From a virus, in the IMG/VR virus record IMGVR_UViG_3300006919_000271, positions 1 through 30,129 of that record: DNA of 30,129 bases; one strand, written 5' to 3'. Of the stretch, positions 5,896 through 25,932 are shown in pieces (positions within the stretch are counted from its first letter, which is position 1; every line of letters starts with the position of its first letter). The notes under the pieces are model-generated. The model made no database searches. It was not told the DNA's origin and worked only from the letters and a program-made list of their open reading frames with translations. Both the position numbers and the translations under genes were made by a program.

Positions 5896-6077
5896 TGACA
5901 GTTACATATAGTTTTAATGAACCAGCCCAAGATGCTCGTCATTACCAATCACAAATTCTAATGTATGAAGAACATCAAAGACTAGCTGTAGCAGAAGGTG
6001 AAGATACTACAGATATAGAGGCAAAACTAGCAGAACTTAGGACAGCCTTTCTAGCTGCAGGAGGCAGTTTCGATTGA
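5895..6077 (+). CDS. Small 60-aa tail-module protein
   Basis: The start overlaps the hub-fibre stop by 1 nt (TAATG), and GGAG lies upstream. The protein is acidic and mostly helical: residues 15-55 form an amphipathic, probably coiled-coil helix rich in Ala, Glu and Leu. There is no signal peptide or membrane segment. Its last codons contain the AGGAGG that serves the next gene, so the two are translationally linked. I do not recognise a family. Its place directly after the fibre gene suggests a fibre-assembly chaperone or small structural part, but nothing in the sequence proves this. Confidence 0.65.
   Translation: MTVTYSFNEPAQDARHYQSQILMYEEHQRLAVAEGEDTTDIEAKLAELRTAFLAAGGSFD
6059..6064 (+). 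promoter_or_regulatory. AGGAGG ribosome binding site for a TTG start at 6074
   Basis: A perfect AGGAGG with a 9-nt spacer precedes TTG 6074, which overlaps the previous TGA. It supports use of this non-ATG start. The next in-frame Met is deep in the conserved N-terminus. Confidence 0.75.
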
Positions 6078-6874
6078 AGTTTTCTTTGGGGGGTAAACAA
6101 TCTATAGAATTCAAAACAGACTTTAAAGGTCTTGAAGAGTTTGCACCAGTAAAACCATCTAAATTTTTTCTACCTCATTGGTTTAAAGATATGAATGACT
6201 ATATAGAACAAGATGCTCATCACGAAAAAGGGCAAAAAAATTACTTTGGAAAGAAAAAAGAAACAGCTACTAAATGGAGTGGAGGGACAGTTAAAAGATG
6301 TCCAGCAATTGTAGATTTACTTACTGAAGGTTTCATCATTCCTATGTGGGCAGACTTTCTAATACAAAGAGATATGGAAACATTGGAATGGGATAATAAA
6401 GGGAACACTCAATACGGTATAGACTTTCACGGTAAGGCACAAATAGCTGGATGGAAACTCAAAAAAACAGATTTCCCGGAAGGTGTAAAGTTTGTAAACC
6501 CTTGGAGAATATACACACCACCCGGATATTCAGTAATGTTTATGCCTCCAACATATCAATTTGAGAAAAGATTTACAGTATTGCCGGGAATAGTAGAAAC
6601 TGACTCGTATCATCATATCAACTTCCCAACGATTTGGCACACGACTAAGGATGCTATAATAGAAAGAGGAACGCCGTTCATTCAAGTCATCCCATTCAAA
6701 AGAGATGATTGGTCACATACCACATCTCAAATGAACCAAGAAGACTTTGATAACGATATCCAAGAAAAGAGTGAACTTAACAGCAAGTTTAAAAACTCAT
6801 ACAGAAAGATTACAGGGCGATTAAAAGATGGCAGACATCATAAACGAAGGAGATTCCAAGTTAGAGGTAGTTGA
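6074..6874 (+). CDS. VETD-family phage protein, copy A (inside tail module)
   Basis: This 266-aa protein belongs to a family present at least three times here (also 22553-23398 and 24748-25509). Shared elements in order are: E-F-A-P-x2-P-x5-P-x-W-F near residue 25; K-R-C-P-A-I-V-D then G-F-I-I-P-M-W near 75-92; F-x-N-P-W with T-P-P-G-Y-S near 138-152; G-I-V-E-T-D-S-Y-H near 172; and E-R-G-x-P-F-I-Q-V-I-P-F near 200. The order of the last three blocks recalls the DUF6065 family as I remember it; this was not searched. No function is known to me. Unlike its paralogues it is embedded between fibre genes, and it overlaps the next gene by 47 nt. The basic tail (G-R-H-H-K-R-R-R) lies in that overlap. 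It uses a TTG start. Confidence 0.8.
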   Translation: MKFSLGGKQSIEFKTDFKGLEEFAPVKPSKFFLPHWFKDMNDYIEQDAHHEKGQKNYFGKKKETATKWSGGTVKRCPAIVDLLTEGFIIPMWADFLIQRDMETLEWDNKGNTQYGIDFHGKAQIAGWKLKKTDFPEGVKFVNPWRIYTPPGYSVMFMPPTYQFEKRFTVLPGIVETDSYHHINFPTIWHTTKDAIIERGTPFIQVIPFKRDDWSHTTSQMNQEDFDNDIQEKSELNSKFKNSYRKITGRLKDGRHHKRRRFQVRGS

Positions 6875-11000: not shown

Positions 11001-14000
11001 ATACAAATAACACCGGGAGTCACTTATAGATTTGATATGTCTGACAACTCTAACAGTAGTCACCCATTTAGGTTTTCAACAGTTTACGACGGAACACACA
11101 CTAGTGGTTCTCAATATACAACAGGTGTAACAACAAGTGGAACTGCAGGTTCTGCAGGAGCTTATGTAGATATTAAAGCAGATGCTTCTACACCGGACAG
11201 ATTGTTCTATTATTGTGGTAATCACTCCGGAATGGGTGGAGGTCTATTAGAAGTTGCAGGTAACTCAATGGTTACTTTTGCAGTTACAGTAGCTAACGTA
11301 AGTGGTAACAAATATCATCTTGATGGAGAAACTGCTGCAAGCGTTCAATTAGTTCCGGGAACAGTTTATAGATTTGACCAAGGAGACAGTTCTAACAATG
11401 GACATCCATTTAGATTCTCTACTACAAAAGATGGAACATTTAACAGTGGTAGCGAATACACAACTCAAGTTTCTACTTCCGGAACTCCGGGAACAGCAGG
11501 TTCATACACACAAATAATTGTAAATGCTGCAACTGCAGACTCTCTTTACTATTACTGCTCTAACCACAGTGGAATGGGTGGAAATGGTGTTGTTTCAGTC
11601 CAAGGATTGTCATTAGCAGATAGTGACACAGACGATTTATCAGAAGGCAGTTCTAACCTTTACTTTACAAACGCAAGGGCTAGAAGTGCAGTTTCTGCAA
11701 CAGACGCAGGTGGAGATGGTAGTTTCGCATATAACTCTTCAACTGGAGTATTCACCTATACAGGACCAAGTGCTTCTGAGACTAGAGCACACTTTAGTGG
11801 TAGCACTGGTATAACTTTAACAAATGGAGCTATAGCGATAGATGGAACAGTATTAACAAGTAGCAATACAACTGATGATGTTACAGAAGGTTCCAGTAAT
11901 CTTTATCACACAACAGCTAGAGCTAGAAGTGCTATCTCGGTAACAGATGCCGGTGGAGATGGAAGCCTTGCTTACAATAGCTCTACAGGGGTTATAACAT
12001 ACACAGGACCTTCTGCAGCAGAAGTTAGAGCTCATATCACTGCAGGAACAGGTGTATCTATAGCATCCGGTGAAGTTGCAATTGGTCAGTCAGTTGGAAC
12101 CTCAGATAACGTAACCTTTAACGATATGACAGTTGCAGGTAATTTAACAGTCAGTGGAACTACAACAACTATAAATACAGAGACTCTTACTGTTGATGAC
12201 AACATAATTGTATTAAACAACAATGCTCCATCAACTCCTACAGAAAATGCAGGAATAGAAATAGAGCGTGGAGACTCTACAAACAAGACTTTTATTTGGA
12301 ATGAATCTACTGATAAATGGACAATAGGTTCAGAAACTTTTGTTGCTGGAACATTCGAAGGTGCATTAACAGGAAATGTAACTGGAGATGTTACAGGTAA
12401 TGCTGATACAGCAACCGCTTTAGCAACAGCTAGAAATATAGGTGGTGTTTCTTTTGATGGAACAGCAAGTATAGATTTACCGGGTGTCAACACAGCTGGT
12501 AATCAAAATACAAGTGGTAGTGCTGCTACCTTAACAACAGCAAGAAACTTTTCATTAACTGGAGATATAACTGCAAGTGCAGTTACTTTTGATGGTTCCG
12601 GTGCCGTAGCTTTAGCTACAACAATAGGTGCAGGTGCTGTTGACTTTGCAATGATTGCAGACACTGTTGATGAAGATGATATGACATCTAACTCTGCAAC
12701 TAAATTACCAACACAGCAATCAGTCAAGGCTTATGTAGATACACAATTAGCTACTAAAGATGCTTTATCAGAACTCAGTGGAGATTCTGATGATATAACC
12801 GAAGGTTCTACAAATCTATTTCATACTTCTGCAAGAGCAGATGCAAGAATAGCATTAGCTAATTTACAAGATTTAGCGAATGTTGGATTCTCTGCACCGG
12901 GTTCTTCTGATAATCAAAAAGTTGTATCTTGGGATGACTCAGCAGGTGCATTCGCATTAGCTTCTGTATCCGGTCTATCCGGTTCGGGTGAGACTAATAC
13001 AGCTGCAAACGTTGGAACTGCAGGTGTTGGTGTATTCAAAGGTAAAGTTGGAGAAGAATTACAGTTTAAGAAAATAAATGCAGGTTCTGCAAAGATAACA
13101 ATTACAGATGATACTTCTAACGATGAAGTAGATATAAATCTTGGAACTGTATCAATAGATGATTTAAGTGATGTAGATATAACAACATCAGCACCTACAA
13201 GTGGTCAAGCTCTTAAATGGGATGGCTCTAACTTTGTTCCGGGTGATGCTAGTTCTAACATTGCACAATTAGGTGATGTCACATTAACTTCATTAGCTGC
13301 AAATCAAGTATTAAGATATAGTGGTTCAGCTTGGTTAAATGTCACATTAGATACAGATGACATTGGTGAAGGTTCTACAAATCAATACCATACAGCAGAA
13401 AGAGTTCAAGATGTTGTTGGTGCTCAATTAGTTACAAATGGTTCTCATACCAATATTACTGCTGCTTATGATGACAGCGGTGATGGTGCTATAGACCTAT
13501 CTATAACTGATGCAGTAATTAGAGGAAAGATATCCGTAACAGATTCCGGTGGAGATGGTTCGTTAGCATATAACAACTCAACTGGTGTAATTACTTATAC
13601 AGGTCCTAGTGCCTCTGAAGTTCAAGCACACATAACAGGAGGAACTGGTGTAACAGTAAGCTCCGGTGAAGTAGCTATTGGACAGGCTGTAGCTACATCT
13701 AGCAACGTAACATTCGCAGATATAGCAGCAACAGGAAATGTAACAATAACTGGTAACTTAGATGTTAACGGAACTACTACAACTGTTGATACTACAAATA
13801 CTACAATCGCAGACAGACTTATAGAATTAGGAACTGGAACAACAGGAACCCCAGCAAATGATATGGGTATTGTTCTTGAAAGAGGTTCTTCAGACAATGC
13901 ATTTATAGGTTGGGACGAAAGTGCAGACAAGTTCATTATGGGAACTGGCTCATTTACAGGAGCAAGCACTGGAGACCTTACAATATCAACAGGAACATTA

Positions 14001-15149
14001 GTAGCAAACTTAGAAGGTAACGCTACAGGAATAACAACAGCTGCTATAACAGGATTAACAGAAGATACTTCTCCAGCAGAAACAGATTTAATTGTTGTTT
14101 ATGATGGAAGTGCTGGTGCCTTAAAGAAAGTAGCTAAGTCTAACTTTGCAGGTTCAGTTACCTTTAGCGTAAATGATGAAATGCCTCTTACACTTGCAGA
14201 TGCAAGCTCAGACCCAATACAATTTAGTAACGTTGGAACATCCGGAACAGACTTAGATTTAGTTCTCGCTGATGGAACAACAGACCCAATAAATATTACA
14301 GGAACTTCAAACTCTTCAACAGTATTCAGAGATGGAGATACAGACACATTCGTTGCAGTAGAAACTTCTAATTCAGATGATGACAAGATAAGAATGAACA
14401 CTGCAGGCACTGAAAGGCTAACAATAGAAGCTGATGGTGTAGTAGATATAAAATCAGCAAAACTCAAAATTAATAGTGGAGCTGGAACAAACGGTCAAGT
14501 ATTAAGCACAGATGGTGCAGGAACAATTAGTTGGGTAGATAATGGTGGTTCTGTAGCCATAAATGATGTAACCGATGTAGATACAACAGGTTTAGCTACA
14601 GGTGATAGCTTGGTTTACGATGGCTCTAACTTTGTCCCTCAAAGAAATATCATATTAGAAGATGATGATGGAGATACAAAAATACAAGTCGAGGAAGCTA
14701 CTGATGAAGATACAATAAGATTTGATACTGGTGGCACAGAAAGAATGACTATTACTGGCACAACTATTGATGTTAAAGGTAATAATTTAAAAAACTATAG
14801 TGAAACAAATGTTGCAGTCACACAATCTACTGGAACTGTAGCTATAGATTTATCTAGTGGTAATACAGGAGAGATTACACTAAGTGCCAATGTTACAGAT
14901 ATTGACTTTACAAACGTTCCTACAAGTGGAACCTCTACATTTACTATGAAAGTTACACAAGATGGAACTGGCTCTAGAACTATGGCTATAAATGCTATAA
15001 CTGTTAATGGTGGGGGCAACGTTACAGGTAAGACAGTAGAAGGAGATGGACTTACTCTTAGCACAGGAGCTAACGATGAAGATATAGTCACTTTCTTATT
15101 CTTCAATGCAGGAACACCGTTTATCAACGCTTTATTGGATTTCTCATAA
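8073..15149 (+). CDS. Giant repetitive tail fibre with tandem cupredoxin-like domains
   Basis: This 2358-aa protein is the largest in the window and is almost free of Cys and Trp outside a few modules. It is built of repeated beta-rich units. One unit (L-T-V-S-G-T-Q-T-I, E-T-L-T-V-D-D-N, E-N-A-G-I-E, F-V-A-x-T-F) starts near nt 8391, 10306, 12130 and, diverged, 13740. A second (S-V-T-D-S-G-G-D-G-S-L-A-Y, G-V-I-T-Y-T-G-P-S-A) occurs near nt 9775, 10100, 11690, 11935 and 13530. Residues about 945-1180 are two tandem copies of a different domain with plastocyanin-like copper ligands. The last ~120 residues are a non-repetitive cap. It starts 3 nt after the previous stop without an evident Shine-Dalgarno sequence. 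The role is a long fibre or adhesin shaft. Long reverse-strand frames within it are codon-bias shadows. Confidence 0.9.
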   Translation: MASKTPIRGDFSGSDLVGLAEFQASDFIAIADGGTGAVTASGARTALGLAIGSDIQAFDAQLTDISGLTPTDSHFIVGDGSNFVTETGSTARASLGLGSSDSPSFNNLTVSGNLTVSGTQTILSTETLTVDDNQIVLNSNATGSATENAGIEIERGDDANVTLLWDETNDRWTIGTNNFVAATFIGNLTGNVTGTVSSLSNQDTDSLSEGSSNLYFTSERVDDRVAALLVDSATSGIDISYDDTNNQLTISSDLSEIVEALQDNVQGLFTGGTGVTTTYDDSGNTLSLAIDFSEFDTDNISEGSTNLYFTNARTDARIAAASIGALSDVTLSSTTTGDILRYNGSAFVNEPLNLGTDTEGNYVADITAGAGLATTGSASEGQSPTLSVNVDDSSIEIDTDTLQVKALGITDGMLAGSISNSKLTNNTITVTDGSNSTATALGGTITFTGGAGVDIAESSGTLTFTADLGEITTDLNERIDDRIGSGMVVGGDGVDVAYDDTANTFTLSADLSEITEAFTDKVGTMFSGGTETLITVTYDDTNNRFNLVVDNDLANYSNTNTAFITLGSISVTDSGGDGSLSYDNSSGVITYTGPSAAETRAHFSAGTGITLSSGEISIPQAITTSSDVVFNQVTADLVGNVTGNVTGTVSSLSNQDTDNLTEGSSNLYFTNARARGAVSVTDSGGDGSLAYNSTTGVITYTGPSAAEVQAHITAGTGVSISSGEVAIGQAVATTSDVNFATVTTTGNVTVGGNLTVSGTQTIINTETLTVDDNIIILNSNAASTPTENAGIEVERGDSSNKTLLWNETDDKWTVGSETFVAGTFEGALTGNVTGTVSSISNHSTSDLSEGTNLYYTDARAQASITGGTGISNTSGTLAIDFSEFDTDSMVEGSTNQYHTAARARASVSGSTGITYNSSTGAISIDSTVATLTGSQTLTNKTINLEDSNDVISVIMVTVDNASGSNKYLLDGEVAGNIQITPGVTYRFDMSDNSNSSHPFRFSTVYDGTHTSGSQYTTGVTTSGTAGSAGAYVDIKADASTPDRLFYYCGNHSGMGGGLLEVAGNSMVTFAVTVANVSGNKYHLDGETAASVQLVPGTVYRFDQGDSSNNGHPFRFSTTKDGTFNSGSEYTTQVSTSGTPGTAGSYTQIIVNAATADSLYYYCSNHSGMGGNGVVSVQGLSLADSDTDDLSEGSSNLYFTNARARSAVSATDAGGDGSFAYNSSTGVFTYTGPSASETRAHFSGSTGITLTNGAIAIDGTVLTSSNTTDDVTEGSSNLYHTTARARSAISVTDAGGDGSLAYNSSTGVITYTGPSAAEVRAHITAGTGVSIASGEVAIGQSVGTSDNVTFNDMTVAGNLTVSGTTTTINTETLTVDDNIIVLNNNAPSTPTENAGIEIERGDSTNKTFIWNESTDKWTIGSETFVAGTFEGALTGNVTGDVTGNADTATALATARNIGGVSFDGTASIDLPGVNTAGNQNTSGSAATLTTARNFSLTGDITASAVTFDGSGAVALATTIGAGAVDFAMIADTVDEDDMTSNSATKLPTQQSVKAYVDTQLATKDALSELSGDSDDITEGSTNLFHTSARADARIALANLQDLANVGFSAPGSSDNQKVVSWDDSAGAFALASVSGLSGSGETNTAANVGTAGVGVFKGKVGEELQFKKINAGSAKITITDDTSNDEVDINLGTVSIDDLSDVDITTSAPTSGQALKWDGSNFVPGDASSNIAQLGDVTLTSLAANQVLRYSGSAWLNVTLDTDDIGEGSTNQYHTAERVQDVVGAQLVTNGSHTNITAAYDDSGDGAIDLSITDAVIRGKISVTDSGGDGSLAYNNSTGVITYTGPSASEVQAHITGGTGVTVSSGEVAIGQAVATSSNVTFADIAATGNVTITGNLDVNGTTTTVDTTNTTIADRLIELGTGTTGTPANDMGIVLERGSSDNAFIGWDESADKFIMGTGSFTGASTGDLTISTGTLVANLEGNATGITTAAITGLTEDTSPAETDLIVVYDGSAGALKKVAKSNFAGSVTFSVNDEMPLTLADASSDPIQFSNVGTSGTDLDLVLADGTTDPINITGTSNSSTVFRDGDTDTFVAVETSNSDDDKIRMNTAGTERLTIEADGVVDIKSAKLKINSGAGTNGQVLSTDGAGTISWVDNGGSVAINDVTDVDTTGLATGDSLVYDGSNFVPQRNIILEDDDGDTKIQVEEATDEDTIRFDTGGTERMTITGTTIDVKGNNLKNYSETNVAVTQSTGTVAIDLSSGNTGEITLSANVTDIDFTNVPTSGTSTFTMKVTQDGTGSRTMAINAITVNGGGNVTGKTVEGDGLTLSTGANDEDIVTFLFFNAGTPFINALLDFS
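8391..13990 (+). repeat. Diverged in-frame repeats within the giant fibre gene
   Basis: At least four copies of a ~90-aa unit and five copies of a ~65-aa unit alternate in frame. Copies are similar in protein but differ at many third codon positions, so the duplications are old or kept diverse. They provide substrate for recombination that changes fibre length or domain content. Confidence 0.85.
10914..11610 (+). other. Two tandem plastocyanin-like (type 1 copper) domains inside the giant fibre
   Basis: Two ~115-aa units share Y-R-F-D, H-P-F-R-F-S and Y-Y-C-x-N-H-S-G-M-G-G. Candidate copper ligands are H997, C1048, H1051 and M1054 in the first unit, and H1111, C1162, H1165 and M1168 in the second. 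Both have 51 residues between the first His and the Cys, then C-x2-H-x2-M. Plastocyanin uses His, Cys, His and Met in the same order (H37, C84, H87, M92). The ligand set is visible in the sequence. Copper binding is inferred. Confidence 0.6.
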
Positions 15150-16529: not shown

Positions 16530-17840
16530 ATGGCTGAGATTGAAATCCCGGAGCCACTGTTATTAGACAGATTGGGCGGGGAAGAAGTTTATGGTTTTGG
16601 TCAAGACGGAGATGTAACAATAGCAGCAGATACAACCCTAACAAGGGATATGTATTACAACAATCTAACTATCAATGCAAGTTGCACAGTAGACACAAAT
16701 GGATACAGAGTATTCGTTAGAGGAACGTTGGCTTTTACAGACGCTACTTCTCGTATTGGTAGATTCACATCTAAAACAACAGCAGGAACACTTAAAGGTG
16801 GATTTGCTAAAGGTGTAGACGCAACAGATACTCTTGGTGGAGCTTCCGGTGAGCAAAGTGGTTCACACGCTTCCGGAGATGAATTCTTTAAAGGTGATAA
16901 CGAAATGTTTAACCTTACAGTAGCTTTATTAGGAAAAAAATTCGACCCTTCAGATAATACCACTAAGTTTATTGGTGGAGGTTCGGGAGGAGACGACGGA
17001 GCCATCACAGCAAATGCGGGGGCAGGTGCAGATGGTGGAGACTCGGGCTGGGGAGACTACCAAACAGTAGGAGCAGCTGGAGGTAAAGGGTCTGCTGGTA
17101 ATGCAGCAACGGCAGGGACAGGAGCTGTAGGTGGAGGAGTTGTTTTGGTTTTAGCTAAGACAATTACGGGAGCAGGAAGTATTAGAGCAGATGGAGACGC
17201 TGCAACAGCTGCAACAGCAGGTAATGCTGGAACACCAGCACCTAATGCATCAACTCCGGGAAATACTAATCCAACTAATTATGGTTCTAACCCAACTAAC
17301 TATGGGTCAAACTCCGGTTCAAACTCCGGTTCTAACCCTACAAACTATGGTTCAAATAACCCTTCTCCATATTCTTATCCGGGTAACTCGGGTTCTAACC
17401 CACATACACATTATCACTGGCATCCAGTGACAATTAACAACTATTCAACTGGTAGTTATCACTATCACTATGCACATTGGCACCCATATTCAAACCCAAC
17501 GAACTACGGTGCAAACCCGGGAAATAACTATTCATATCCCGGCAACAATTATTCTTATGGTTATTCTTATGGCTACAGTTATCCCGGTAACAACTACTCT
17601 TATGGCGGTAATAATAACCCTACAAATAATCACCCCGGTGGAGCAGGTGGTTCAGCAGGAACAGCTTCAGACGGTTACAATGCGGGTGGAGGAACAGTTA
17701 TACTAGTAACATCAACAAAACCTTTACCATCACTAACTTTGGCTGCAGCAGCAGGAACTGGTGGTTCCGGTAGTGCTAGTGCAGGTTCTGTTATAACAGT
17801 ATTCAATATAGATGCAGACGACACAGACCCAGCAGGTTAA
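16530..17840 (+). CDS. Gly-rich fibre/adhesin with His/Tyr/Asn/Pro-rich low-complexity insert
   Basis: This 436-aa protein shares its N-terminus with the next gene (T-T-L-T-R-D-M-Y-Y-N-N-L, then G-Y-R-V-F-V-R, then G-T-L-K-G-G). About residues 150-235 are Gly/Ala-rich. About 237-370 are low complexity: repeats of N-P-T-N-Y-G-S, Y-P-G-N-N-Y-S-Y and Y-S-Y-G, with two His/Trp clusters (H-T-H-Y-H-W-H-P and H-Y-H-Y-A-H-W-H-P). The C-terminus (G-G-G-T-V-I-L-V) again matches the paralogue. The insert could bind metal or host polysaccharide, or be a flexible spacer. A GAGG precedes the ATG. Long forward-frame shadows overlap the repeats and are not genes. Confidence 0.8.
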   Translation: MAEIEIPEPLLLDRLGGEEVYGFGQDGDVTIAADTTLTRDMYYNNLTINASCTVDTNGYRVFVRGTLAFTDATSRIGRFTSKTTAGTLKGGFAKGVDATDTLGGASGEQSGSHASGDEFFKGDNEMFNLTVALLGKKFDPSDNTTKFIGGGSGGDDGAITANAGAGADGGDSGWGDYQTVGAAGGKGSAGNAATAGTGAVGGGVVLVLAKTITGAGSIRADGDAATAATAGNAGTPAPNASTPGNTNPTNYGSNPTNYGSNSGSNSGSNPTNYGSNNPSPYSYPGNSGSNPHTHYHWHPVTINNYSTGSYHYHYAHWHPYSNPTNYGANPGNNYSYPGNNYSYGYSYGYSYPGNNYSYGGNNNPTNNHPGGAGGSAGTASDGYNAGGGTVILVTSTKPLPSLTLAAAAGTGGSGSASAGSVITVFNIDADDTDPAG

Positions 17841-17850
17841 GGAGTAAATT

Positions 17851-18510
17851 ATGGCAATAACACAAGTAGGAAAAGCAGTATCAGATTTTGAATCTTTCGA
17901 TATCATTCCCGATAGTATTTATGGTTCCGGTATGGACGGAAACGTAACAATATCTAGCAATACAACACTTACTAGAGATATGTATTACAACAACTTACAG
18001 ATTGATGCAGGAATAGTTTTAGACACAGCAGGATATAGAGTTTTTGTAAGAAATAGATTAACAATGGCGCCAACCAGTGCAAACCAAGCAGACACAAAGA
18101 TTGGTAGAGTAGGTGCAGCATCGACATCCGGAACTCTTAAAGGTGGAGCTCAAGCAGCTGCTACAGATTCTTTAGGCGGAAATGGAAATGGTTATACAGC
18201 TACAGCACCAACAGAAGGTGCAAATTATTTTAATCATCCCGACATAGCTATTACAGGTGTTATACAACACGGTGGCTCAACTACAGCTACAGGACTTGTA
18301 GGTGGAGCAGGGGATAATGTTAACTATGGTGGTGGAGTTGTTGTAGTTTGTGCTAGAAAAATACAAGGTCACGGAACAATAGAAGCTAGTGGAGAAACTA
18401 CTACAGGTGGTGGAGTTATATTTATAGTTTCACAGACTATTCCTCTTACTGGTGTGACTACAGATGTTACTGGATATGCGGCAGGGACTGTAAAGACATT
18501 CAAGGTGTAA
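17851..18510 (+). CDS. Fibre/adhesin paralogue without the low-complexity insert
   Basis: This 219-aa protein has a GGAG Shine-Dalgarno sequence. It aligns with the preceding 436-aa protein at both ends: T-T-L-T-R-D-M-Y-Y-N-N-L, D-T-x-G-Y-R-V-F-V-R, G-T-L-K-G-G and D-S-L-G-G near the start, and G-G-G-V-I-F-I-V-S near the end. It lacks the ~130-residue Asn/Tyr/His/Pro segment and most of the Gly-rich region. The pair looks like a tandem duplication followed by insertion in one copy or loss in the other. Its role is probably structural, near the tail tip. No catalytic motif is visible. Confidence 0.75.
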   Translation: MAITQVGKAVSDFESFDIIPDSIYGSGMDGNVTISSNTTLTRDMYYNNLQIDAGIVLDTAGYRVFVRNRLTMAPTSANQADTKIGRVGAASTSGTLKGGAQAAATDSLGGNGNGYTATAPTEGANYFNHPDIAITGVIQHGGSTTATGLVGGAGDNVNYGGGVVVVCARKIQGHGTIEASGETTTGGGVIFIVSQTIPLTGVTTDVTGYAAGTVKTFKV

Positions 18511-18513
18511 CAA

Positions 18514-19419
18514 ATGAGTTCACCTAAATATATCCGTGTTCACCTAGACAGATTTGGTTCAGATACTGAAGAATACAACTTATGGTATTGCCTAGGTATG
18601 GTTTATCCGGATTTCACAAATCCTTTATTTCCTAATAGTTCTTCAGACTTACAACATCCATACTATCCAAGAAAAGCAATAGCTTTTAACGAACAGAAAT
18701 ATGTAGACATTCCTATGGAACAATCTTCTGTAGTTTCTTTCTACATAAAGAGAAAAGACGGATATCACGTTTACAACGGAGAAATAAGTGGAACAGAAGG
18801 TATAGAAACCGGAGGACTAGACCCATTTAAGTATGAAACAGGTTATATGTGGACAGTAGATGTCAATGTAAACCCACAATCAGAAGTGTTTATTAAGGAA
18901 GGTAAACCATATGTCTATAGAGACAATACATACAATGGAATACTTGCTTTTGGAATATCTACAGTAGGTTCATCAGATGATGAATTAGATGAAGATGAAA
19001 CAGCTGAGCAAAAAACAATGGGAAATAAATACAGAATATTTTATGATTTTAAAAACTACTTTGAAATAGATATACCCGAAGAAGCATCCTACGAGTTATG
19101 GGGAGATACTGGTAAGGAACCTTCAGAGTTTCAAATGCTATACTTAAAGGGTAAATCTTATAACAACATAGGAGAAGATAATATGGACTTGTCATTAAGT
19201 GCTGAAGCACTGCAAGAACAGAAAGACGATGCAAAACAGATGTTAGAGTCTGCTATTGCTAATAGTCTCTATAAAATCGGAGAAGACGTAGATGATTTTG
19301 ATGAGGCTGCTTTCTTGGCAGATGTTACAGCTTTCAAAGCTGGCAAAGATATTTCATTTAATCAAACAATTGATTATTTGAAGGTGTGCATAGATAATCT
19401 AAATACAATCAACGGATAA
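18514..19419 (+). CDS. Uncharacterised protein at tail/accessory boundary
   Basis: I do not recognise this 301-aa protein. It starts 3 nt after the fibre paralogue, with AAGG upstream. Residues 1-180 look like a beta-rich, aromatic domain (Y-N-L-W-Y-C-L-G-M-V-Y-P, H-P-Y-Y-P-R-K-A-I-A-F, S-F-Y-I-K-R-K-D-G-Y-H-V-Y-N-G). About 155-170 is an acidic linker. The C-terminal ~80 residues are helical (from A-E-A-L-Q-E-Q-K-D-D-A-K-Q). There is no signal peptide. It could be the last structural gene or the first gene of the accessory cassette. The composition is less Thr/Ser-rich than that of the fibres. Confidence 0.65.
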   Translation: MSSPKYIRVHLDRFGSDTEEYNLWYCLGMVYPDFTNPLFPNSSSDLQHPYYPRKAIAFNEQKYVDIPMEQSSVVSFYIKRKDGYHVYNGEISGTEGIETGGLDPFKYETGYMWTVDVNVNPQSEVFIKEGKPYVYRDNTYNGILAFGISTVGSSDDELDEDETAEQKTMGNKYRIFYDFKNYFEIDIPEEASYELWGDTGKEPSEFQMLYLKGKSYNNIGEDNMDLSLSAEALQEQKDDAKQMLESAIANSLYKIGEDVDDFDEAAFLADVTAFKAGKDISFNQTIDYLKVCIDNLNTING

Positions 19420-19435
19420 AGGTTTAGGGAGGGAT

Positions 19436-19909
19436 ATGCGTAAAATATTTTACGTTCCAAAATCTAAAGACTATATGGATTATGAATCCGAATGGAAAGG
19501 CATAACTGCGCTCATCCAAACTGGATTAAGCGAAAATATAGAACAATTTGTAGATAATCCGGAAGTTGCCCAAATGGTTAACATACCGGAATATTTTAAT
19601 TTAGAAGCACCCAATCACGCTAGTGATAAAGAATACTTTCAAGTAGAGTATTACGACGATTTTGAAGTTCTCAAAAGAGATAAAGCTGACATATCTTTAC
19701 AGGTATGGAAAAAGAACTTAGATAACCCATCACAAGAAGATGTATTGGTGGAAACATACCCAATGAACTTTGAGGTGGGAAGAAAAATATGGATAACCAA
19801 TCATATTCAACTAGACATTGGTTGGTATGATGTAGTTCTTTTAAAAGGCTCAAAAGAGATTGATAGCAAAGAAATGTCAATCTATGAGTATTTTTTAGAG
19901 GAAGAATGA
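19436..19909 (+). CDS. Uncharacterised acidic protein of the accessory cassette
   Basis: This 157-aa protein is preceded by a strong GGGAGGG. It is acidic and aromatic, with a beta-strand-rich C-terminal half (V-L-V-E-T-Y-P-M-N-F-E-V-G, then I-W-I-T-N-H-I-Q-L-D-I-G-W-Y-D-V-V-L-L) resembling a small beta-sandwich. Its stop overlaps the next start by 4 nt (ATGA), so it is coupled to the first oxygenase-like gene. I find no catalytic motif and do not recognise a family. Confidence 0.65.
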   Translation: MRKIFYVPKSKDYMDYESEWKGITALIQTGLSENIEQFVDNPEVAQMVNIPEYFNLEAPNHASDKEYFQVEYYDDFEVLKRDKADISLQVWKKNLDNPSQEDVLVETYPMNFEVGRKIWITNHIQLDIGWYDVVLLKGSKEIDSKEMSIYEYFLEEE

Positions 19910-20619
19910 AACGAAATTTATTTAAAAGTGTAGAACCATACCCAGTTGTTCCCGGTGTTTACACTTGGGAAAATTGTTTAGATGTCCCAAATGGTATTGT
20001 CGATATTATGAACTCAGAAGTCGACGGTTGGAAAGACAGTATTTCTAAAGCAGATGTTAAAAACAATGACTCACTTAAATCAGTGTATGGGGCAAATGGA
20101 CCAATAAGGTTTGACCCGGAAGTTAACTTTCACAAAGAAGAATCAAAAACCTTCTTAAAACAAGTTCAGAGAAATGCTTTGGATAAAGCTGCTGATTATA
20201 TGCAGATATATCCCGATGTAGAGATGGAAGTGAATTGGATGGAAACTTGGCAATACATTACATACAAACCACCAAAGCATATGACATTTCACAGTGATAA
20301 TCACGCAGTAAGAGACCCAAGAACAAATAAACATCATATTGCTCCGTATTTAAGAAGATTTACAATACTTACTTATTTAAATGATGATTTTGATGGAGGT
20401 TCTTTAGTGTTTAGATATTTTCCCGAAGTTGCACCTTACAAACCACCAGCAGGTAGTGTAGTTATTATGCCAAGTGCTTATGTATGGTCACACGCTACAA
20501 CGCCATTATTGAATGGCAGAAAAGCTGCATTCCTAGTTTCTATGAGCAGCCACTATGATGTAGGTTCTGAAGAAACAGGAGCACCAGTTACAGCGTTAGC
20601 AAAGAGGGAGTTAAGATAG
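19906..20619 (+). CDS. 2OG-Fe(II) oxygenase, prolyl-4-hydroxylase type
   Basis: This 237-aa protein has the full facial triad of the double-stranded beta-helix oxygenases: H129-x-D131 (in M-T-F-H-S-D-N-H) and the distal H196 (W-S-H-A-T-T-P). R205, 9 residues later, is positioned to bind 2-oxoglutarate. The intervening R-R-F-T-I-L-T-Y-L-N-D-D-F-D-G-G-S-L-V-F is the usual strand and Gly-rich turn of P4H-like enzymes, and P-P-A-G-S-V-V-I-M-P-S precedes the distal His. Such enzymes use O2 and 2-oxoglutarate to hydroxylate proteins, sugars or small molecules. The substrate here is unknown. It is coupled by overlaps to genes on both sides. Confidence in the fold and active site is high. Confidence 0.88.
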   Translation: MKRNLFKSVEPYPVVPGVYTWENCLDVPNGIVDIMNSEVDGWKDSISKADVKNNDSLKSVYGANGPIRFDPEVNFHKEESKTFLKQVQRNALDKAADYMQIYPDVEMEVNWMETWQYITYKPPKHMTFHSDNHAVRDPRTNKHHIAPYLRRFTILTYLNDDFDGGSLVFRYFPEVAPYKPPAGSVVIMPSAYVWSHATTPLLNGRKAAFLVSMSSHYDVGSEETGAPVTALAKRELR

Positions 20620-21308
20620 TGGAAAACTATACAACTATGGGAAGTGTAGAAATTTACTACGACTTTTTAAACAAAGAGCAATCAAAAAATATTATTGAGT
20701 CTATTGAAGCAATGGACCAAGATAAAGAATTCCCAGCAGGGTTCGAAGATGCAAAAGTTGGTAAAGGTCACAAAGGTGGAGAAATAAGAAGTAATTCATT
20801 GTTTCCTTTGACTCTACATTCAAATATGGACCCAAACCAAAGGGAATATAGAGAAGCAATCAAAAATGGAACAGACACTTATTTTAAAGAATTAAAGGAA
20901 ATACAAGACTTACTATCTAATAAGATGGTTGAGTTTGTTGGAAGATATACAGACAAATATGAATTCAGCATTGACTTTGATGAAGGTTTTACATTGTTAA
21001 GGTATAAAGGTGGTCAAGAGTATAAACCACATTGTGATTATGCACCACACATACCAAGACATTTATCTGCTTTAATTCTTTTGAATCCAACAGAGTATGA
21101 AGGTGGTGGAACATACTTCGAACATTTTGAAGAAAACGTCAAAACAGAAGCACCAGCTTTAATATTATTTCCTAGTAATTATGCATATTCTCATAGAGCA
21201 ATGCCAGTCATTAGTGGAACTAAGTATGCTATTGTAACTTGGTTAGGTCATCCATTCGATACAGATGGAATGCCGGGAATGTATCTACCTCAAGGAGGCG
21301 GTCAATGA
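20619..21308 (+). CDS. 2OG-Fe(II) oxygenase-like protein, second copy
   Basis: This 229-aa protein starts with GTG in a 1-nt overlap, with GGGAG upstream. Active-site residues are H138-C-D140 (Y-K-P-H-C-D-Y), distal H192 (Y-S-H-R-A-M-P-V) and K202, ten residues later, where 2OG oxygenases carry Arg or Lys. S-A-L-I-L-L-N-P and E-Y-E-G-G-G-T-Y-F match the strand plus Gly turn. It differs from the first copy in the Lys and in its N-terminus (M-G-S-V-E-I-Y-Y-D-F-L-N-K-E-Q), which is typical of P4H-like phage enzymes. This is probably a gene duplication with a changed substrate. The substrate is not known. Confidence 0.87.
   Translation: MENYTTMGSVEIYYDFLNKEQSKNIIESIEAMDQDKEFPAGFEDAKVGKGHKGGEIRSNSLFPLTLHSNMDPNQREYREAIKNGTDTYFKELKEIQDLLSNKMVEFVGRYTDKYEFSIDFDEGFTLLRYKGGQEYKPHCDYAPHIPRHLSALILLNPTEYEGGGTYFEHFEENVKTEAPALILFPSNYAYSHRAMPVISGTKYAIVTWLGHPFDTDGMPGMYLPQGGGQ
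21292..21298 (+). promoter_or_regulatory. Ribosome binding site for the start at 21305
   Basis: AAGGAGG with a 6-nt spacer precedes ATG 21305, which overlaps the previous stop as ATGA. It rules out the longer frame opening at 21239 as the main start. Confidence 0.8.
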
Positions 21309-21850
21309 ACGCAACAGGAGTAGATAACTTATTTAAAGGTATTCAGTTTGACGAACTTGAATACTTTATGGATACACAATCACCACATATAGACTCAGAC
21401 AACTGGGAACATAGAGGAACTCACTATGCAAAAGCTGCTGGGGAATTAGATGTTTTACATAAATTCACAACTGATAGAGCTAGAGACATATTTGCAGTTC
21501 ACGATTTACTGCCTACTTCAGCAAGAATACAGTGGTATGAATTTTCACCCGATGGGAAAGAACATTATGATGATGGAGCTATAGAGTATACAATTCTATA
21601 CAACTATTATTCAGAAGAACCAGTAACGTTTATATATCCAAATGGAGAGTTCACTCTAGAAAACAATGAGGCAGTAGCTTATTGTGGACAAGAGCTCTTA
21701 CATCAAAGAAAGAAAACTGAAGGTATTTCTATATGTATATCTTTAGCTTATGCAAAACCTAACAATCCACACTTCGCTTTAGGCGAGTATAATGGGTTAG
21801 GTTATAAATTTAAATCAACCACAGAGGAGATAGAAGAAAATTGGCTATAG
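21305..21850 (+). CDS. Divergent 2OG-oxygenase / cupin-like protein
   Basis: This 181-aa protein has a candidate H87-Y-D89 pair (K-E-H-Y-D-D-G), then the strands Y-T-I-L-Y-N-Y-Y and E-P-V-T-F-I-Y-P, and a distal H133 (L-L-H-Q-R-K-K-T-E-G) followed by basic residues that could bind 2-oxoglutarate. The order and spacing fit a compact double-stranded beta-helix iron enzyme, but the usual Gly-rich turn is weak. It follows two clear 2OG oxygenases and overlaps the next gene by 10 nt, which supports the assignment. A metal-binding cupin without 2OG use is the main alternative. Confidence 0.6.
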   Translation: MNATGVDNLFKGIQFDELEYFMDTQSPHIDSDNWEHRGTHYAKAAGELDVLHKFTTDRARDIFAVHDLLPTSARIQWYEFSPDGKEHYDDGAIEYTILYNYYSEEPVTFIYPNGEFTLENNEAVAYCGQELLHQRKKTEGISICISLAYAKPNNPHFALGEYNGLGYKFKSTTEEIEENWL

Positions 21851-22551
21851 TATCACAATCATTTAGATGTGGACCTACTCTACAATTTGATAATGCAGAT
21901 ATATTTGAAGCAAAAGCAACTGAGTTAGGTCATATTAATCCGTCCTTAGAGTTTTGGCTTAAAGAAAATGCTAGTAGTTTTGACAATGCTTTAGTTATAG
22001 GTGCAGGCTTCGGCTTGTCCTCTAAGCAATTATTAGATGCAGGCGCAGAAGTAACTTCTTTTGAACCTTCACAAGCTAGATTTGACTTACTAGAAGACAA
22101 CTGTGCAGACGGAGACAATTATAGAAAAGCAGCTGGAAAACTAGCAGGAGAAGAGATACTCTACTCTTGGTCAGACAATCAATCACAAGCAGTAGTTGGT
22201 AAAGTTATGGGTAACAATACACAAACTATAGATGTCGTAACAGTCGACAGTTTAGATTTATCTTTAGACTTATTACTTGTTTATGCAAATGGTAAAGAAC
22301 TAGATGTATTAGACGGAGCTTCAGCAACAATGACAGCTAATCCAAATATGAAAATTATAATAGGATGGCAACCGGATACAATTGAGAACATAGACGAAGC
22401 TGTTACTAAATTACAGAGTTATGGTAAAACAGTTTCAATAATTCACTGGGAACCGGAAGGTGACACAATAAGTTTGAAAGAACAATTCACAGGAGCTCAT
22501 CACAATGATTCTCTGAAAGCGGTATATAAAGCAGAATTATTATTGGAGTAG
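21841..22551 (+). CDS. FkbM-like SAM-dependent methyltransferase (atypical)
   Basis: This 236-aa protein starts with TTG 21841, preceded by GAGGAG. It has a Rossmann SAM-binding motif (A-L-V-I-G-A-G-F-G near residues 50-58) and an acidic strand end (T-S-F-E-P-S near 75). Near 145-165, V-D-S-L, D-L-L-L-V and G-K-E-L-D-V-L-D-G-A parallel the FkbM signature. In FkbM proteins that region usually reads K-I-D-V-E-G-x-E; here the acidic D and E are replaced in V-Y-A-N-G-K-E. FkbM enzymes usually O-methylate sugars or natural products. The fold is likely. Activity is uncertain because of the changed signature. It lies in the cassette between oxygenase-like and VETD-family genes. Confidence 0.65.
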   Translation: MAIVSQSFRCGPTLQFDNADIFEAKATELGHINPSLEFWLKENASSFDNALVIGAGFGLSSKQLLDAGAEVTSFEPSQARFDLLEDNCADGDNYRKAAGKLAGEEILYSWSDNQSQAVVGKVMGNNTQTIDVVTVDSLDLSLDLLLVYANGKELDVLDGASATMTANPNMKIIIGWQPDTIENIDEAVTKLQSYGKTVSIIHWEPEGDTISLKEQFTGAHHNDSLKAVYKAELLLE

Positions 22552-22552
22552 T

Positions 22553-23398
22553 ATGAGTAAATGGTGGGAGAAAAAAAAATATAAACGCCTCTTAGAAGAA
22601 AAAGAACATATCGTTGGAGAAGACGAAAAGATATTATTCTTAGCAAATCCGGGGCATTCACATTACGTTGATTTAGCTCCACCTAAGCCAGCAAAAGATT
22701 TTATGCCTTCTTGGTATAAACAATTGCAAAGAGAGTGGACAGAGCTTAGAGATGGGGACCACGGAGTTTGGAAAGATGCAACTTGGAACGGAGTTCCATA
22801 TAAAGACAATTCATTAAAAAAATGTCCTACAGTTAAAGACATTATGTTTAGTGGATATATTATTCCCTTGTGGCTGGACCTAAAAATCAACTTTACGGAA
22901 GAAAGTGGATTTAATTGGTATAATAAACACGCATTCGAAGATACCATAACATATCATAGTCCTCACTCAATAGGTTCTATGCCTATCAATGATGGTTCTT
23001 GGAATACAGCAATGAAATTCTCAAATCCTTGGGACATAATAACACCACCGGGTTGGTCAGTTATGATTATGTCTCCTTGGTATCACAGAAACTGGGAAAT
23101 AGAAATTATGCCTAGTGTTGTTGAAACTGATAGTTATCACCAAATGAATATACCATTCTTATATCACGGAAATGGTGAAAGAACTTTTAGACAAGGAATG
23201 CCGTTAGTTCAAGTAATTCCATACAAAAGAAGTGGTTTTGACTTAGATTCTTATGAGTCTAGGGTTATGGACGAAGATGAGAAATCCTACTATGATAAGA
23301 CTAGAGCTGCTGAAAGAACCAAACAAAATGGTTGGTATCGTTGGCAGACACAACAAAATAAGAAAAAATGGAAAGAAGATGGGATTATAGATGAGTAA
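22553..23398 (+). CDS. VETD-family phage protein, copy B
   Basis: This 281-aa paralogue of the genes at 6074 and 24748 carries the same blocks: D-L-A-P-P-K-P-A-K-D-F-M-P-S-W-Y, L-K-K-C-P-T-V-K-D, G-Y-I-I-P-L-W, F-S-N-P-W, T-P-P-G-W-S-V-M-I-M, V-V-E-T-D-S-Y-H-Q-M-N-I-P, and F-R-Q-G-M-P-L-V-Q-V-I-P-Y. It has a longer basic N-terminus (K-K-K-Y-K-R) and a highly charged C-terminal tail. The ATG has GGAG upstream. The conserved His, Glu, Asp and Trp residues could line an active or binding site, but no known catalytic motif is present. It overlaps the next gene by 8 nt. Confidence 0.8.
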   Translation: MSKWWEKKKYKRLLEEKEHIVGEDEKILFLANPGHSHYVDLAPPKPAKDFMPSWYKQLQREWTELRDGDHGVWKDATWNGVPYKDNSLKKCPTVKDIMFSGYIIPLWLDLKINFTEESGFNWYNKHAFEDTITYHSPHSIGSMPINDGSWNTAMKFSNPWDIITPPGWSVMIMSPWYHRNWEIEIMPSVVETDSYHQMNIPFLYHGNGERTFRQGMPLVQVIPYKRSGFDLDSYESRVMDEDEKSYYDKTRAAERTKQNGWYRWQTQQNKKKWKEDGIIDE

Positions 23399-24230
23399 GT
23401 GTCCAGTGCCTAAAGGATTCAAGATACCAAGACTAACAGATACTTGGTCAGAAAAGTTAAGTTCACATCGTAAGAGTATGCCTACAGTTGCTTTTACACT
23501 ACCTAGACCTAATCAACAATGGGGTCAGTTAGAAAATCAAGACCCACAAAGTTATCACCCACCGATTAACTTTAGGAATCCACAGAAGTTTATTAAAGCA
23601 CCCAATGGTTGCGTATCAACACAGTTTATGCGTAACAGAATGTTTGAAGTTTATTTTCCTTGGTCTTATGTAAAGGTAAAGCTAAGTAAAAACAAATTTA
23701 GTGATGAAGTAGATAGGTTCGCTGGTTTTAACTATCAAGCTAATTATCACGGTGCAGTAAAGCATCACGGTCCATTCAATGACTTAATTATGGAAGAGAA
23801 AGAGGCTTGGGGATATCCCGATAAGCCAGTTATGCAAATATCTATGCCAGTTATGTTATTTACTGATGATGAAGAAGTTTGGATGGATGTAATACCATCA
23901 GATAGAAATGCAGGACAAAATTTACCTATCTCTACTATTCCCGGATTTATGCCTATCTATGGGTGGTCTCGTGGATTATCTTGGGCATTCCAGTGGGAAG
24001 ATATGGATAACCTAGAACTTAATCTAAATCACGATACTGTAATGTTTAACCTACTATTCAGTAAACCAGTGAAGATAGAATATGTAGAGTGGAATGAAAC
24101 TTTTAGTAAAGCTTGGAATCAGATTAGTCAGTCTTCTGTGAATAGAAGAGATACGAATATGCTCTATCCCGACGCACTAGAGAGAAGACCTAAGAAATTA
24201 ATGCCAAAGAAAAAATGGCTGAAGTTCTAA
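23391..24230 (+). CDS. Uncharacterised protein, possible divergent VETD-family member
   Basis: This 279-aa protein starts in an 8-nt overlap. It lacks the literal VETD motif but shows a similar order of blocks: N-F-R-N-P, M-R-N-R-M-F-E-V-Y-F-P-W-S-Y near residues 82-95, P-V-M-Q-I-S-M-P-V-M-L-F then V-W-M-D-V-I-P-S-D, P-I-S-T-I-P-G-F, and N-H-D-T-V-M-F-N-L-L-F-S-K-P. These can be laid against the P-P-G-W-S, G-I-V-E-T-D and P-F-x-x-V-I-P-F blocks of its neighbours. Distant homology is a hypothesis. Otherwise I do not recognise it. The C-terminus is basic (R-R-P-K-K-L-M-P-K-K-K-W) and is read through into the next start. Confidence 0.6.
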   Translation: MSKCPVPKGFKIPRLTDTWSEKLSSHRKSMPTVAFTLPRPNQQWGQLENQDPQSYHPPINFRNPQKFIKAPNGCVSTQFMRNRMFEVYFPWSYVKVKLSKNKFSDEVDRFAGFNYQANYHGAVKHHGPFNDLIMEEKEAWGYPDKPVMQISMPVMLFTDDEEVWMDVIPSDRNAGQNLPISTIPGFMPIYGWSRGLSWAFQWEDMDNLELNLNHDTVMFNLLFSKPVKIEYVEWNETFSKAWNQISQSSVNRRDTNMLYPDALERRPKKLMPKKKWLKF

Positions 24231-24751
24231 TTGTTGATAATCTTTTTCCTCAACCTCTCTTCGATAGGTTAGTAAAAACTTGTAAAAGAAGATACAAAAA
24301 TGCTATTTGGAATGATGAATTCGGTAGATGGGGAATAACAACTGAAGACCAATCTAACGATGGTTCTTGGTTGATGCCTTATGGTATGCGTATATTACCT
24401 AAAGCTAAAGAACTATTCAAAGCAGAAGAACTAGATATAAGTTACATTATGTTTGCACAATACGAAACAGAGAAAGCTAATCTACCTAAACACAAAGATA
24501 ACAATGCTTGCACTTACACCTTAGATGTTTGCTTATACTACGATACACCTTGGGCTATATGGGTAGAAGATAAAGAATACTTTTTAAAACCAAATCAAGC
24601 GTTACTGTTTTACGGAGAAGACCAATTACACTGGAGAGACGACTTTCCGGACCCGGAAAATAATGTAGTAGGTATGATGTTTAACCATTATGTAGAACCG
24701 GAACATTGGTGGCATACAGGTCAAAGAATAATAGACGGGAAAAAACAATGA
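24215..24751 (+). CDS. 2OG-Fe(II) oxygenase-like protein, fourth copy
   Basis: This 178-aa protein has a candidate triad H93-K-D95 (L-P-K-H-K-D-N-N) and H139 (Q-L-H-W-R-D-D-F). Between them lie the strand L-D-V-C-L-Y-Y and P-N-Q-A-L-L-F-Y-G-E-D, which occupies the place of the usual turn before the distal His. An Arg two residues after H139 is too close for the standard 2OG-binding position, so the co-substrate site is uncertain. The N-terminus (V-L-I-V-D-N-L-F-P-Q-P-L-F-D-R-L-V) is typical of phage P4H-like proteins. It begins 16 nt inside the previous gene and ends in an ATGA overlap with the next. Confidence 0.7.
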   Translation: MAEVLIVDNLFPQPLFDRLVKTCKRRYKNAIWNDEFGRWGITTEDQSNDGSWLMPYGMRILPKAKELFKAEELDISYIMFAQYETEKANLPKHKDNNACTYTLDVCLYYDTPWAIWVEDKEYFLKPNQALLFYGEDQLHWRDDFPDPENNVVGMMFNHYVEPEHWWHTGQRIIDGKKQ

Positions 24752-25509
24752 AGTGGATTCAAGGTAACAATATAAGGTTTGCTACACCTAACCCAGCACT
24801 AGTAGAACTTGCACCCCCAGTTCCAGCAGCTCAAATGATACCGGAATGGTTTCAAGCATTAAAGATGGATTTACCAAGAGCAGACCAAAAGCCATTTCCA
24901 GTTATAGGTGAGATAATTAAAAAGTGGTCTTCACACACACTAAAGAAATGTCCAGCAGTAGTAGATTACTTTGCAGAAGGATACATAATTCCTTTGTGGT
25001 CAGACATAATGGTTCAAAGATACGGTCAAGATTTTCACTTTGAGACTAATGGAAACAATGAAGGCTTAGGAAGCGTTATAGAATTTCACGATGAAGCACA
25101 ATTCTCAACTTATCCATTTAAAAGAAATGATTACAGAAGAGCAGTAAAGTTTACAAGTCCTTGGTTCTTTCATACTCCACCGGGTTGGTCAATGTTGTTT
25201 ATGAAACCTTTGATGCATCCACAGGATAACTACACCTTATTCCCCGGCATTGTTGAAACAGATAGTTTTCATCAAGTAAACTTTCCAAGTATATGGCATA
25301 GTGAGGGAGACAGGATACTTGAAAGAGGATATCCGTTCTTACACGTTATACCTTTTAAAAGAAGCAAACATAATCTAGTTGTTGAAGAGTTTACAGACGA
25401 ACATCATAGAGAAAATAATATTGAGTCTTTTACTTTAAGAAGTAAGATGACTGGTGGATATAGAGATTTAACAAGAAAAAACAGGAAGAAACAAACTGGT
25501 AAACTGTAA
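24748..25509 (+). CDS. VETD-family phage protein, copy C
   Basis: I take ATG 24748, which overlaps the previous stop as ATGA; an upstream TTG at 24706 is less likely because paralogue similarity starts after 24748. The 253-aa protein shows V-E-L-A-P-P-V-P-A-A-Q-M-I-P-E-W-F, L-K-K-C-P-A-V-V-D-Y, G-Y-I-I-P-L-W-S-D, F-T-S-P-W, T-P-P-G-W-S-M-L-F-M, G-I-V-E-T-D-S-F-H-Q-V-N-F-P, W-H and E-R-G-Y-P-F-L-H-V-I-P-F-K-R. It is closer to copy A (6074) than to copy B in the C-terminal half. The function is unknown. It lies directly before the ferredoxin gene. Confidence 0.8.
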   Translation: MKWIQGNNIRFATPNPALVELAPPVPAAQMIPEWFQALKMDLPRADQKPFPVIGEIIKKWSSHTLKKCPAVVDYFAEGYIIPLWSDIMVQRYGQDFHFETNGNNEGLGSVIEFHDEAQFSTYPFKRNDYRRAVKFTSPWFFHTPPGWSMLFMKPLMHPQDNYTLFPGIVETDSFHQVNFPSIWHSEGDRILERGYPFLHVIPFKRSKHNLVVEEFTDEHHRENNIESFTLRSKMTGGYRDLTRKNRKKQTGKL

Positions 25510-25511
25510 AT

Positions 25512-25766
25512 ATGAAAGTTTGGATTGACCAAGATTTATGCACTGGCGATGGTTTATGTGCAGAAATATCTCCCGAAGTATTTACAATGAAAAACGATGG
25601 ACTAGCTTATGTCCAAGAACATACTCCTTACCCTAAAGTTTATTCTGCAATAGATGGCAATCCACAAGGTGCTGAAGGCTTAGCGGTAGTTCCTATTGGC
25701 AAAGAAGAGCTAGTAAAAGAAGCAGCTGAAGAGTGTCCCGGAGAGTGCATATTTTACAGTATATAA
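25512..25766 (+). CDS. Small Fe-S ferredoxin, C-x2-D-x2-C type
   Basis: This 84-aa protein starts with I-D-Q-D-L-C10-T-G-D13-G-L-C16 and ends with E-E-C75-P-G-E-C79. C10, C16 and C75 with D13 form the ligand set of single-cluster ferredoxins that hold a [3Fe-4S] cluster, or a [4Fe-4S] cluster with Asp as fourth ligand, as in Pyrococcus furiosus ferredoxin. S-P-E-V-F after C16 is also typical. An insertion of ~20 residues (about 40-60) separates the two halves. Actinobacterial cytochrome P450 partners have the same layout. Here it ends the oxygenase cassette and may deliver electrons to one of its iron proteins or to a host enzyme. C79 is an extra Cys. Confidence 0.8.
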   Translation: MKVWIDQDLCTGDGLCAEISPEVFTMKNDGLAYVQEHTPYPKVYSAIDGNPQGAEGLAVVPIGKEELVKEAAEECPGECIFYSI

Positions 25767-25773
25767 TGTAAGT

Positions 25774-25932
25774 ATGGTAAATAATTACGATTTAGAATGG
25801 GAATTACTCAATAAAAGCAGAGTTGTAGATAGAGCACCTATGTCTATTGTTGATACCCCTAGTGCAGAATATGCTACCAAAAGCGGCACTGATTACAGTA
25901 AAAAAGAAGAAGAAGACGTAAAAACCTCTTAA
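25774..25932 (+). CDS. Hypothetical 52-aa charged protein
   Basis: A 52-codon frame begins 7 nt after the ferredoxin stop and fills the gap before the palindrome. The protein starts M-V-N-N-Y-D-L-E-W-E-L-L and ends in a Lys/Glu-rich tail (K-K-E-E-E-D-V-K). It has no Cys and no hydrophobic segment. There is no strong Shine-Dalgarno sequence (G-T-A-A-G-T only). Codon use resembles that of neighbours. It may be a small cassette gene. No function can be inferred. Confidence 0.45.
   Translation: MVNNYDLEWELLNKSRVVDRAPMSIVDTPSAEYATKSGTDYSKKEEEDVKTS

Follow-up and report, generated by a model that had tools for sequence, protein, structure and literature searches.

What is the substrate of the compact cassette of oxygenase, methyltransferase, and ferredoxin genes that follows the fibre genes of an uncultured marine phage? 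This question is raised by IMG/VR record IMGVR_UViG_3300006919_000271, whose 30,129 nt (G+C content, 37.7%) constitute the window analyzed here. Comparison with related loci suggests that this late-region cassette serves for post-translational modification of the tail-fibre/adhesin proteins of the phage itself, a reading to which a probability of about 0.62 is assigned, because the linkage of fibre, 2-oxoglutarate (2OG) oxygenase, and DUF6065 recurs and because the class of the accompanying tailoring enzyme tracks fibre composition. The argument turns on the following genes:

Fib1, 16530–17840, plus strand: fibre/adhesin, the proposed substrate.
Fib2, 17851–18510, plus strand: second, shorter fibre with the same N-terminal type as Fib1.
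OxA, 19906–20619, plus strand: 2OG-Fe(II) oxygenase of the prolyl 4-hydroxylase (P4H)/PKHD type; PF13640, 2.7e-8.
OxB, 20619–21308, plus strand: 2OG-Fe(II) oxygenase of the P4H type that begins with GTG and belongs to the conserved cassette core; PF13640, 3.3e-13.
OxC, 21305–21850, plus strand: divergent and oxygenase-like, carries HxD...H; paralogous to OxD and missing in some relatives.
FkbM-like methyltransferase, 21841–22551, plus strand: occupies the tailoring slot; phrog_8156, 3e-14.
D65a, 22553–23398, plus strand: DUF6065; phrog_7084, 6.5e-51.
V3, 23391–24230, plus strand: divergent protein, dUTPase-like fold by model, confined to this lineage.
OxD, 24215–24751, plus strand: divergent oxygenase-like protein with invariant HxD...H; phrog_2954, 9.8e-13.
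D65b, 24748–25509, plus strand: DUF6065; phrog_7084, 2.5e-53.

Recurrent Linkage of Fibre, Oxygenase, and DUF6065

Distant lineages were sought with alignments of Fib1 and OxB, which returned matches in freshwater and other phages. The succession of a Fib1-type fibre, an OxB-type oxygenase, and DUF6065 recurs in 13 OxB clusters at less than 50% identity, and of the 62 fibre loci whose downstream sequence extends for at least 4 kb, 61 have a 2OG oxygenase, DUF6065, and a tailoring enzyme next to them. Rather than being scattered and never found together, relatives of the fibre, the P4H-type oxygenase, and DUF6065 therefore co-occur in divergent phages. The first-pass annotation had pictured the gene set as a small pathway and had named virion adhesins as one possible target; that part is strengthened by the recurrent linkage and by the correspondence between enzyme class and fibre composition described below, whereas its assignment of electron supply to the ferredoxin is not sustained.

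Fibre modification is further suggested by where the oxygenases lie. In 16 large contigs, 23 of the 33 PF13640 matches fall at most 10 kb downstream of a fibre, a zone comprising 9.5% of the bases; in the eight contigs found by fibre alone, with one contig carrying ten PF13640 matches (G015) left out, the count is 10 of 12. The contig G015 itself provides a proline-rich case that argues in the same direction: its fibronectin-like fibre (L345, 4115–6271, minus strand) ends in (FFPPYFPP)n, and three 2OG oxygenases come directly after it, then DUF6065 and another series of oxygenases of the P4H type. Cyanophages P-TIM40, S-RIM44, Sf-FR1, and S-CREM1 also combine fibre or collagen-like proteins, a halogenase, DUF6065, and many 2OG genes, which is consistent with the same reading; in S-CREM1, the collagen-like protein, halogenase, and DUF6065 are succeeded by a run of 2OG genes and JmjC.

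The Oxygenases

The four HxD...H triads noticed in the first-pass annotation are present and conserved across the alignments of relatives, and the division into two textbook and two divergent enzymes holds. OxA and OxB form one paralogous pair and score 35.1 and 50.9 bits, respectively, against PF13640 (curated cut-off, 27). The OxA triad H129/D131/H196 is invariant, as are R205 and K206 at the basic 2OG-binding position, and the OxB triad H138/D140/H192 is invariant together with the 2OG-binding K202. In profile comparisons with the PDB, the nearest solved structures to OxB are prolyl 4-hydroxylases (5hv0/3itq, 1e-8; 5c5t, 2.6e-5), which argues for a protein substrate such as the fibre, and OxA matches the PKHD hydroxylase 3dkq alone (0.00099).

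OxC and OxD form a second pair (profile comparison, 2.9e-16). H87 of OxC is invariant, with D89 and H133 kept in at least 90% of the alignment, and H93/D95/H139 of OxD are invariant. Profile searches gave no Pfam family for OxC and a weak match of OxD to PF05118, below the curated cut-off; neither profile had a significant PDB match, and a relationship of the pair to OxB was rejected, as profile comparison found no match. Single-sequence searches detected no close relatives of OxC or the FkbM-like protein, and alignments built on synteny performed better. As a separate observation, 2OG oxygenases are labelled "ferrochelatase" and "DNA endonuclease V" in PHROG (phrog_3531, phrog_2954, phrog_274, and phrog_2297); these labels look like misannotations and have been copied into cyanophage records.

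Fibre Composition and the Tailoring Slot

In Fib1, both the head and the tail are conserved, with repeats of the NPTNYGS or SYPGNN type in between. These N/Y/P/G repeats (approximately 17247–17633) surround an invariant HxHYHxH...YHYHYxHxHP segment (17403–17486). No relative of Fib1 was found among 50,697 isolated phages.

The enzyme in the tailoring slot varies among the 13 OxB clusters, being of the FkbM type in one (9/31 also with an N-acetylglucosamine [GlcNAc]-transferase), a GlcNAc-transferase in three, and a halogenase in nine. The histidine content of the low-complexity fibre segments separates these classes without overlap, at 3.7–6.7% with FkbM, 0–0.4% with GlcNAc-transferase, and 10.6–25.9% with halogenase. 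Accordingly, Tyr/Pro-rich, His-free fibre repeats accompany the GlcNAc-transferases of PF11397 (1.9e-26), and fibres with 11–26% His accompany tryptophan halogenases (8e-107 for locus L161). The FkbM-like protein of the window reaches 21.8 bits against PF05050 (Pfam cut-off, 22.7) and 29.1 bits against TIGR01444 (cut-off, 37.7; 1.2e-6), and its S-adenosylmethionine motif GAGxG is conserved in the alignment.

In 13 of the 37 distinct related loci, the ferredoxin has a PF11397 GlcNAc-transferase next to it, mostly on the minus strand. Examples lie in L006 (10802–11653, minus), L002 (2283–3293, minus), and L025 (10738–11682, plus), the gene being mostly the sole minus-strand gene of the block. 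We take the Gnt1 enzyme of the Skp1 pathway to belong to PF11397. Gnt1 adds GlcNAc to a hydroxylated proline of Skp1 (PMC3515798), and the presence of such a transferase in the tailoring slot thus speaks for a hydroxylated protein, here the fibre, as the substrate.

A Model for Fibre Modification

Based on these data, a simple model would have as the main target the low-complexity stretch of Pro, Asn, Tyr, and His in Fib1, whose gene lies directly ahead of the cassette. OxB and OxA would hydroxylate residues in the fibre repeats, most likely proline in the NPT/PGN motifs, and OxC and OxD may contribute further hydroxylations. The tailoring enzyme would next act on the fibre: an FkbM-type methyltransferase in this phage, and a flavin halogenase or a GlcNAc-transferase of the hydroxyproline type in relatives. 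DUF6065, an almost constant companion of these enzymes, would be an accessory protein or hydrolase with a dUTPase fold.

More generally, one might envisage modular fibre tailoring, in which phages would pair an unchanging core (repeat-rich fibre, P4H-type oxygenase, and DUF6065) with one of several interchangeable enzymes that methylate, GlcNAcylate, or halogenate the fibre, each matched to the composition of its fibre. Hydroxylation would then underlie a combinatorial diversification of adhesins, a prokaryotic counterpart of extensin/Skp1 hydroxyproline-glycan chemistry. This extension is tentative, and its chances are put at a little below even.

DUF6065 and V3 Have a Predicted dUTPase-Like Fold

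The family described as unknown in the first-pass annotation is, according to structure models, a dUTPase-like fold and not an oxygenase. The model of D65b (AlphaFold; mean predicted local distance difference test [pLDDT], 80) retrieved only dUTPases or dCTP deaminases in the top 50 Foldseek rows (2.9e-4), and comparison with dUTPase by VIA gave a Z score of 10.1 (root-mean-square deviation, 3.4; 129 aligned). The V3 model (pLDDT, 64) reached a VIA Z score of 8.8 to dUTPases, so that the two protein types are predicted to share this fold. Two clear members of the family had been recognized in addition to one divergent member. The former, D65a and D65b, both belong to phrog_7084; the latter, V3, lacks sequence similarity, and its assignment to DUF6065 by sequence was rejected (0.1% probability in profile comparison), although the modelled folds agree. 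Neither the DUF6065 nor the V3 profile gave a significant match in the PDB.

The strongest DUF6065 of the window was absent from the first-pass finding:

D65c, 6074–6874, plus strand: third DUF6065; phrog_7084, 4.6e-77; PF19541, 2.3e-10, over the cut-off.

It lies directly upstream of a fibre connector (6828) and a 2,358-residue fibre (8073–15149). Against the PF19541 cut-off of 26.6 bits, D65c (34.2) and D65b (28.7) score above and D65a (24.2) below.

Relatives have sequences of the GVVDTD...GTPIAQVIPFKR type, which are similar to motifs 3 and 4 of dUTPase. The lineage of the window does not match the dUTPase catalytic motifs 3 and 5: by eye, the alignments have Glu at the position of the motif-3 Asp, and no Gly-rich, C-terminal motif 5 was seen. 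Because motif 3 is altered and motif 5 is missing, dUTPase activity is not claimed for DUF6065. C70, H113, K133, and R204 (numbered from 6092) are invariant in phage, cyanophage, and halovirus copies, and this set of residues suggests an active site that differs from that of dUTPase. One copy of DUF6065 was found in Caulobacter and none in four Actinobacteria genomes; no paper on the family was found in the open-access literature searched. In the haloviruses HJTV-3 and HSTV-2 (L116 and L044), DUF6065 adjoins a gene for ribonucleotide reductase (RNR) or thymidylate synthase; tail fibre and adhesin genes are nearby, and the oxygenase cassette is absent.

Layout of the Gene Block, the Ferredoxin, and the Host

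All genes named in the first-pass annotation lie where it placed them. The remaining genes of the block are these:

U301, 18514–19419, plus strand: between fibres and enzymes in every case of this lineage.
U157, 19436–19909, plus strand: related proteins also occur where the cassette has a GlcNAc-transferase or a halogenase.
Ferredoxin, 25512–25766, plus strand: single 4Fe-4S/3Fe-4S type, Acidimicrobiia-like; PF13459, 8.3e-18.

A tight operon (19436–25766) holds OxA, OxB, OxC, OxD, the FkbM-like gene, two DUF6065 genes, V3, and the ferredoxin gene. From 19436 on, neighbouring genes overlap or are separated by no more than 2 nt, closer than the 13 nt first allowed. OxC and D65b probably start at ATG 21305 and ATG 24748, respectively, the start in each case overlapping the stop of the gene before by 4 nt. 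U301 matched no Pfam or PHROG family in profile searches, and promoter and terminator scans gave counts not above those of shuffled sequences. An unlabelled open reading frame (ORF) of approximately 52 residues follows the ferredoxin (25775–25932), where relatives often have one of 65–66 residues.

To gather close relatives, D65b, V3, and the ferredoxin were used as queries against viral contigs, and the ORFs of these contigs were then labelled. The neighbourhood that the first-pass annotation had suggested looking for in marine viral contigs is kept in approximately 35 of them, in the order Fib1, Fib2, U301, U157, OxA, OxB, (OxC), FkbM, D65a, V3, (OxD), D65b, ferredoxin, with OxC and OxD absent in part of the set. 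Because this identical order is kept, the gene set is far beyond chance.

The ferredoxin scores 65.3 bits against PF13459 (cut-off, 22.4), and C10, C16, C75, and C79 are invariant. Its family also occurs in Acidimicrobiia, Ilumatobacteraceae, and Candidatus Actinomarina, an indication that the host is a marine actinobacterium, and in many phages without the cassette. The 2OG oxygenases take their electrons from 2OG and require no ferredoxin. A role as oxygenase electron donor was therefore rejected, given also the occurrence of the family apart from the cassette, and the ferredoxin is probably an add-on rather than part of the cassette core. In a freshwater phage (L110, 5381–10246), a Gly-rich fibre is followed by 2OG-like genes, three other small genes, and the same ferredoxin family, without DUF6065. 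In two relatives, the ferredoxin is followed by a 295-residue protein that by eye looks like the PAPS-reductase/QueC type (L026, 10999–11883).

Alternative Explanations

Several observations weigh against fibre modification. OxB or DUF6065 had itself been the query that retrieved some of the contigs, and the loci are related by descent, so that the counts are not independent and overstate independence; the fibre composition classes may themselves follow lineage. Moreover, among the 32 distant OxB loci in which Fib1 had no match, 9 have none of the partners, and in haloviruses and S-RIM4 DUF6065 occurs by itself, close to thymidylate synthase or RNR. Proximity to such genes, together with the dUTPase-like fold, would fit a nucleotide enzyme whose neighbouring oxygenases act on bases. 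That modification of nucleotides or DNA explains the block is nonetheless very improbable, as motif 5 is absent and the motif-3 Asp is replaced by Glu in this lineage, the block contains no DNA-modification genes, and it is located amid fibre genes. The cassette might instead modify host surface glycans or other host macromolecules in superinfection exclusion or host takeover, and follow the fibre merely as a set of fellow late genes. FkbM methyltransferases and glycosyltransferases of the PF11397/PF01755 type act on glycans too, and some cassettes have additional methyltransferases; given that OxB is most closely related to protein hydroxylases, that enzyme class follows fibre composition, and that fibre linkage holds over 13 divergent clusters, this alternative is considered unlikely.

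Fibre regions are variable, and OxC, OxD, V3, and the ferredoxin are gained or lost among relatives, as expected if a fibre-adjacent insertion hotspot had gathered unrelated accessory genes with no joint function. The constancy of the fibre–OxB–DUF6065 core, with change limited to the tailoring slot, makes such a hotspot quite unlikely. Published interpretations differ again: cyanophage 2OG oxygenases have been proposed to act in nitrogen and energy metabolism (PMC3037559; again in PMC9602691), and the cyanophage halogenase has been interpreted as antibiotic protection (PMC2984593; PMC9964418). An auxiliary metabolic role, in which the oxygenases use up 2-oxoglutarate and thereby steer host nitrogen status and energy, leaves unexplained the location behind fibres, the tailoring enzymes, and the proline-rich fibre case, and is given only a very small chance here. 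No paper linking these enzymes to fibres was found in the open-access literature, subscription papers lying outside the search.

The genomes of marine phages, and especially of cyanophages, are rich in 2OG oxygenase and tryptophan halogenase genes, which are usually classed as host-metabolism or antibiotic-protection genes (PMC3037559, PMC9602691, PMC9964418). If fibre modification is correct, many "auxiliary metabolic genes" would represent virion chemistry, adhesin diversity would exceed what gene sequence reveals, and recombinant fibres produced without the cassette would be wrong. The fold assignment of DUF6065 offers a second handle on the cassette.

Comparison with Known Systems

The predicted fold of DUF6065 and V3 is shared with dUTPase and dCTP deaminase, from which they differ by longer N-terminal and middle segments and by altered or absent catalytic motifs. 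The 2OG/halogenase islands next to the tail fibres of the T4-like cyanophages S-CREM1, S-RIM44, P-TIM40, and Sf-FR1 likewise unite fibres, DUF6065, and several 2OG oxygenases, in that order, in a single late block; they have a tryptophan halogenase and more 2OG genes than the window, whereas FkbM, V3, and the Acidimicrobiia ferredoxin were not seen there. HxH motifs in the T4 gp37 fibre bind iron (PMC11705849), and Fib1 resembles this iron-binding fibre tip in its repeated HxH motifs; the likeness is at the motif level, and the HxH segment of Fib1 is flanked by Tyr/Asn/Pro repeats. OxB is similar in sequence, triad, and 2OG-binding Lys to the bacterial and viral prolyl 4-hydroxylases (5hv0, 3itq, 5c5t) but differs in its low identity and in sharing an operon with fibre genes. 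In the Skp1 pathway, a prolyl 4-hydroxylase precedes Gnt1, and relatives of the present locus likewise pair a P4H-type oxygenase with a PF11397 GlcNAc-transferase; that pathway is eukaryotic and acts on a single proline of Skp1, and the window carries FkbM in place of the transferase.

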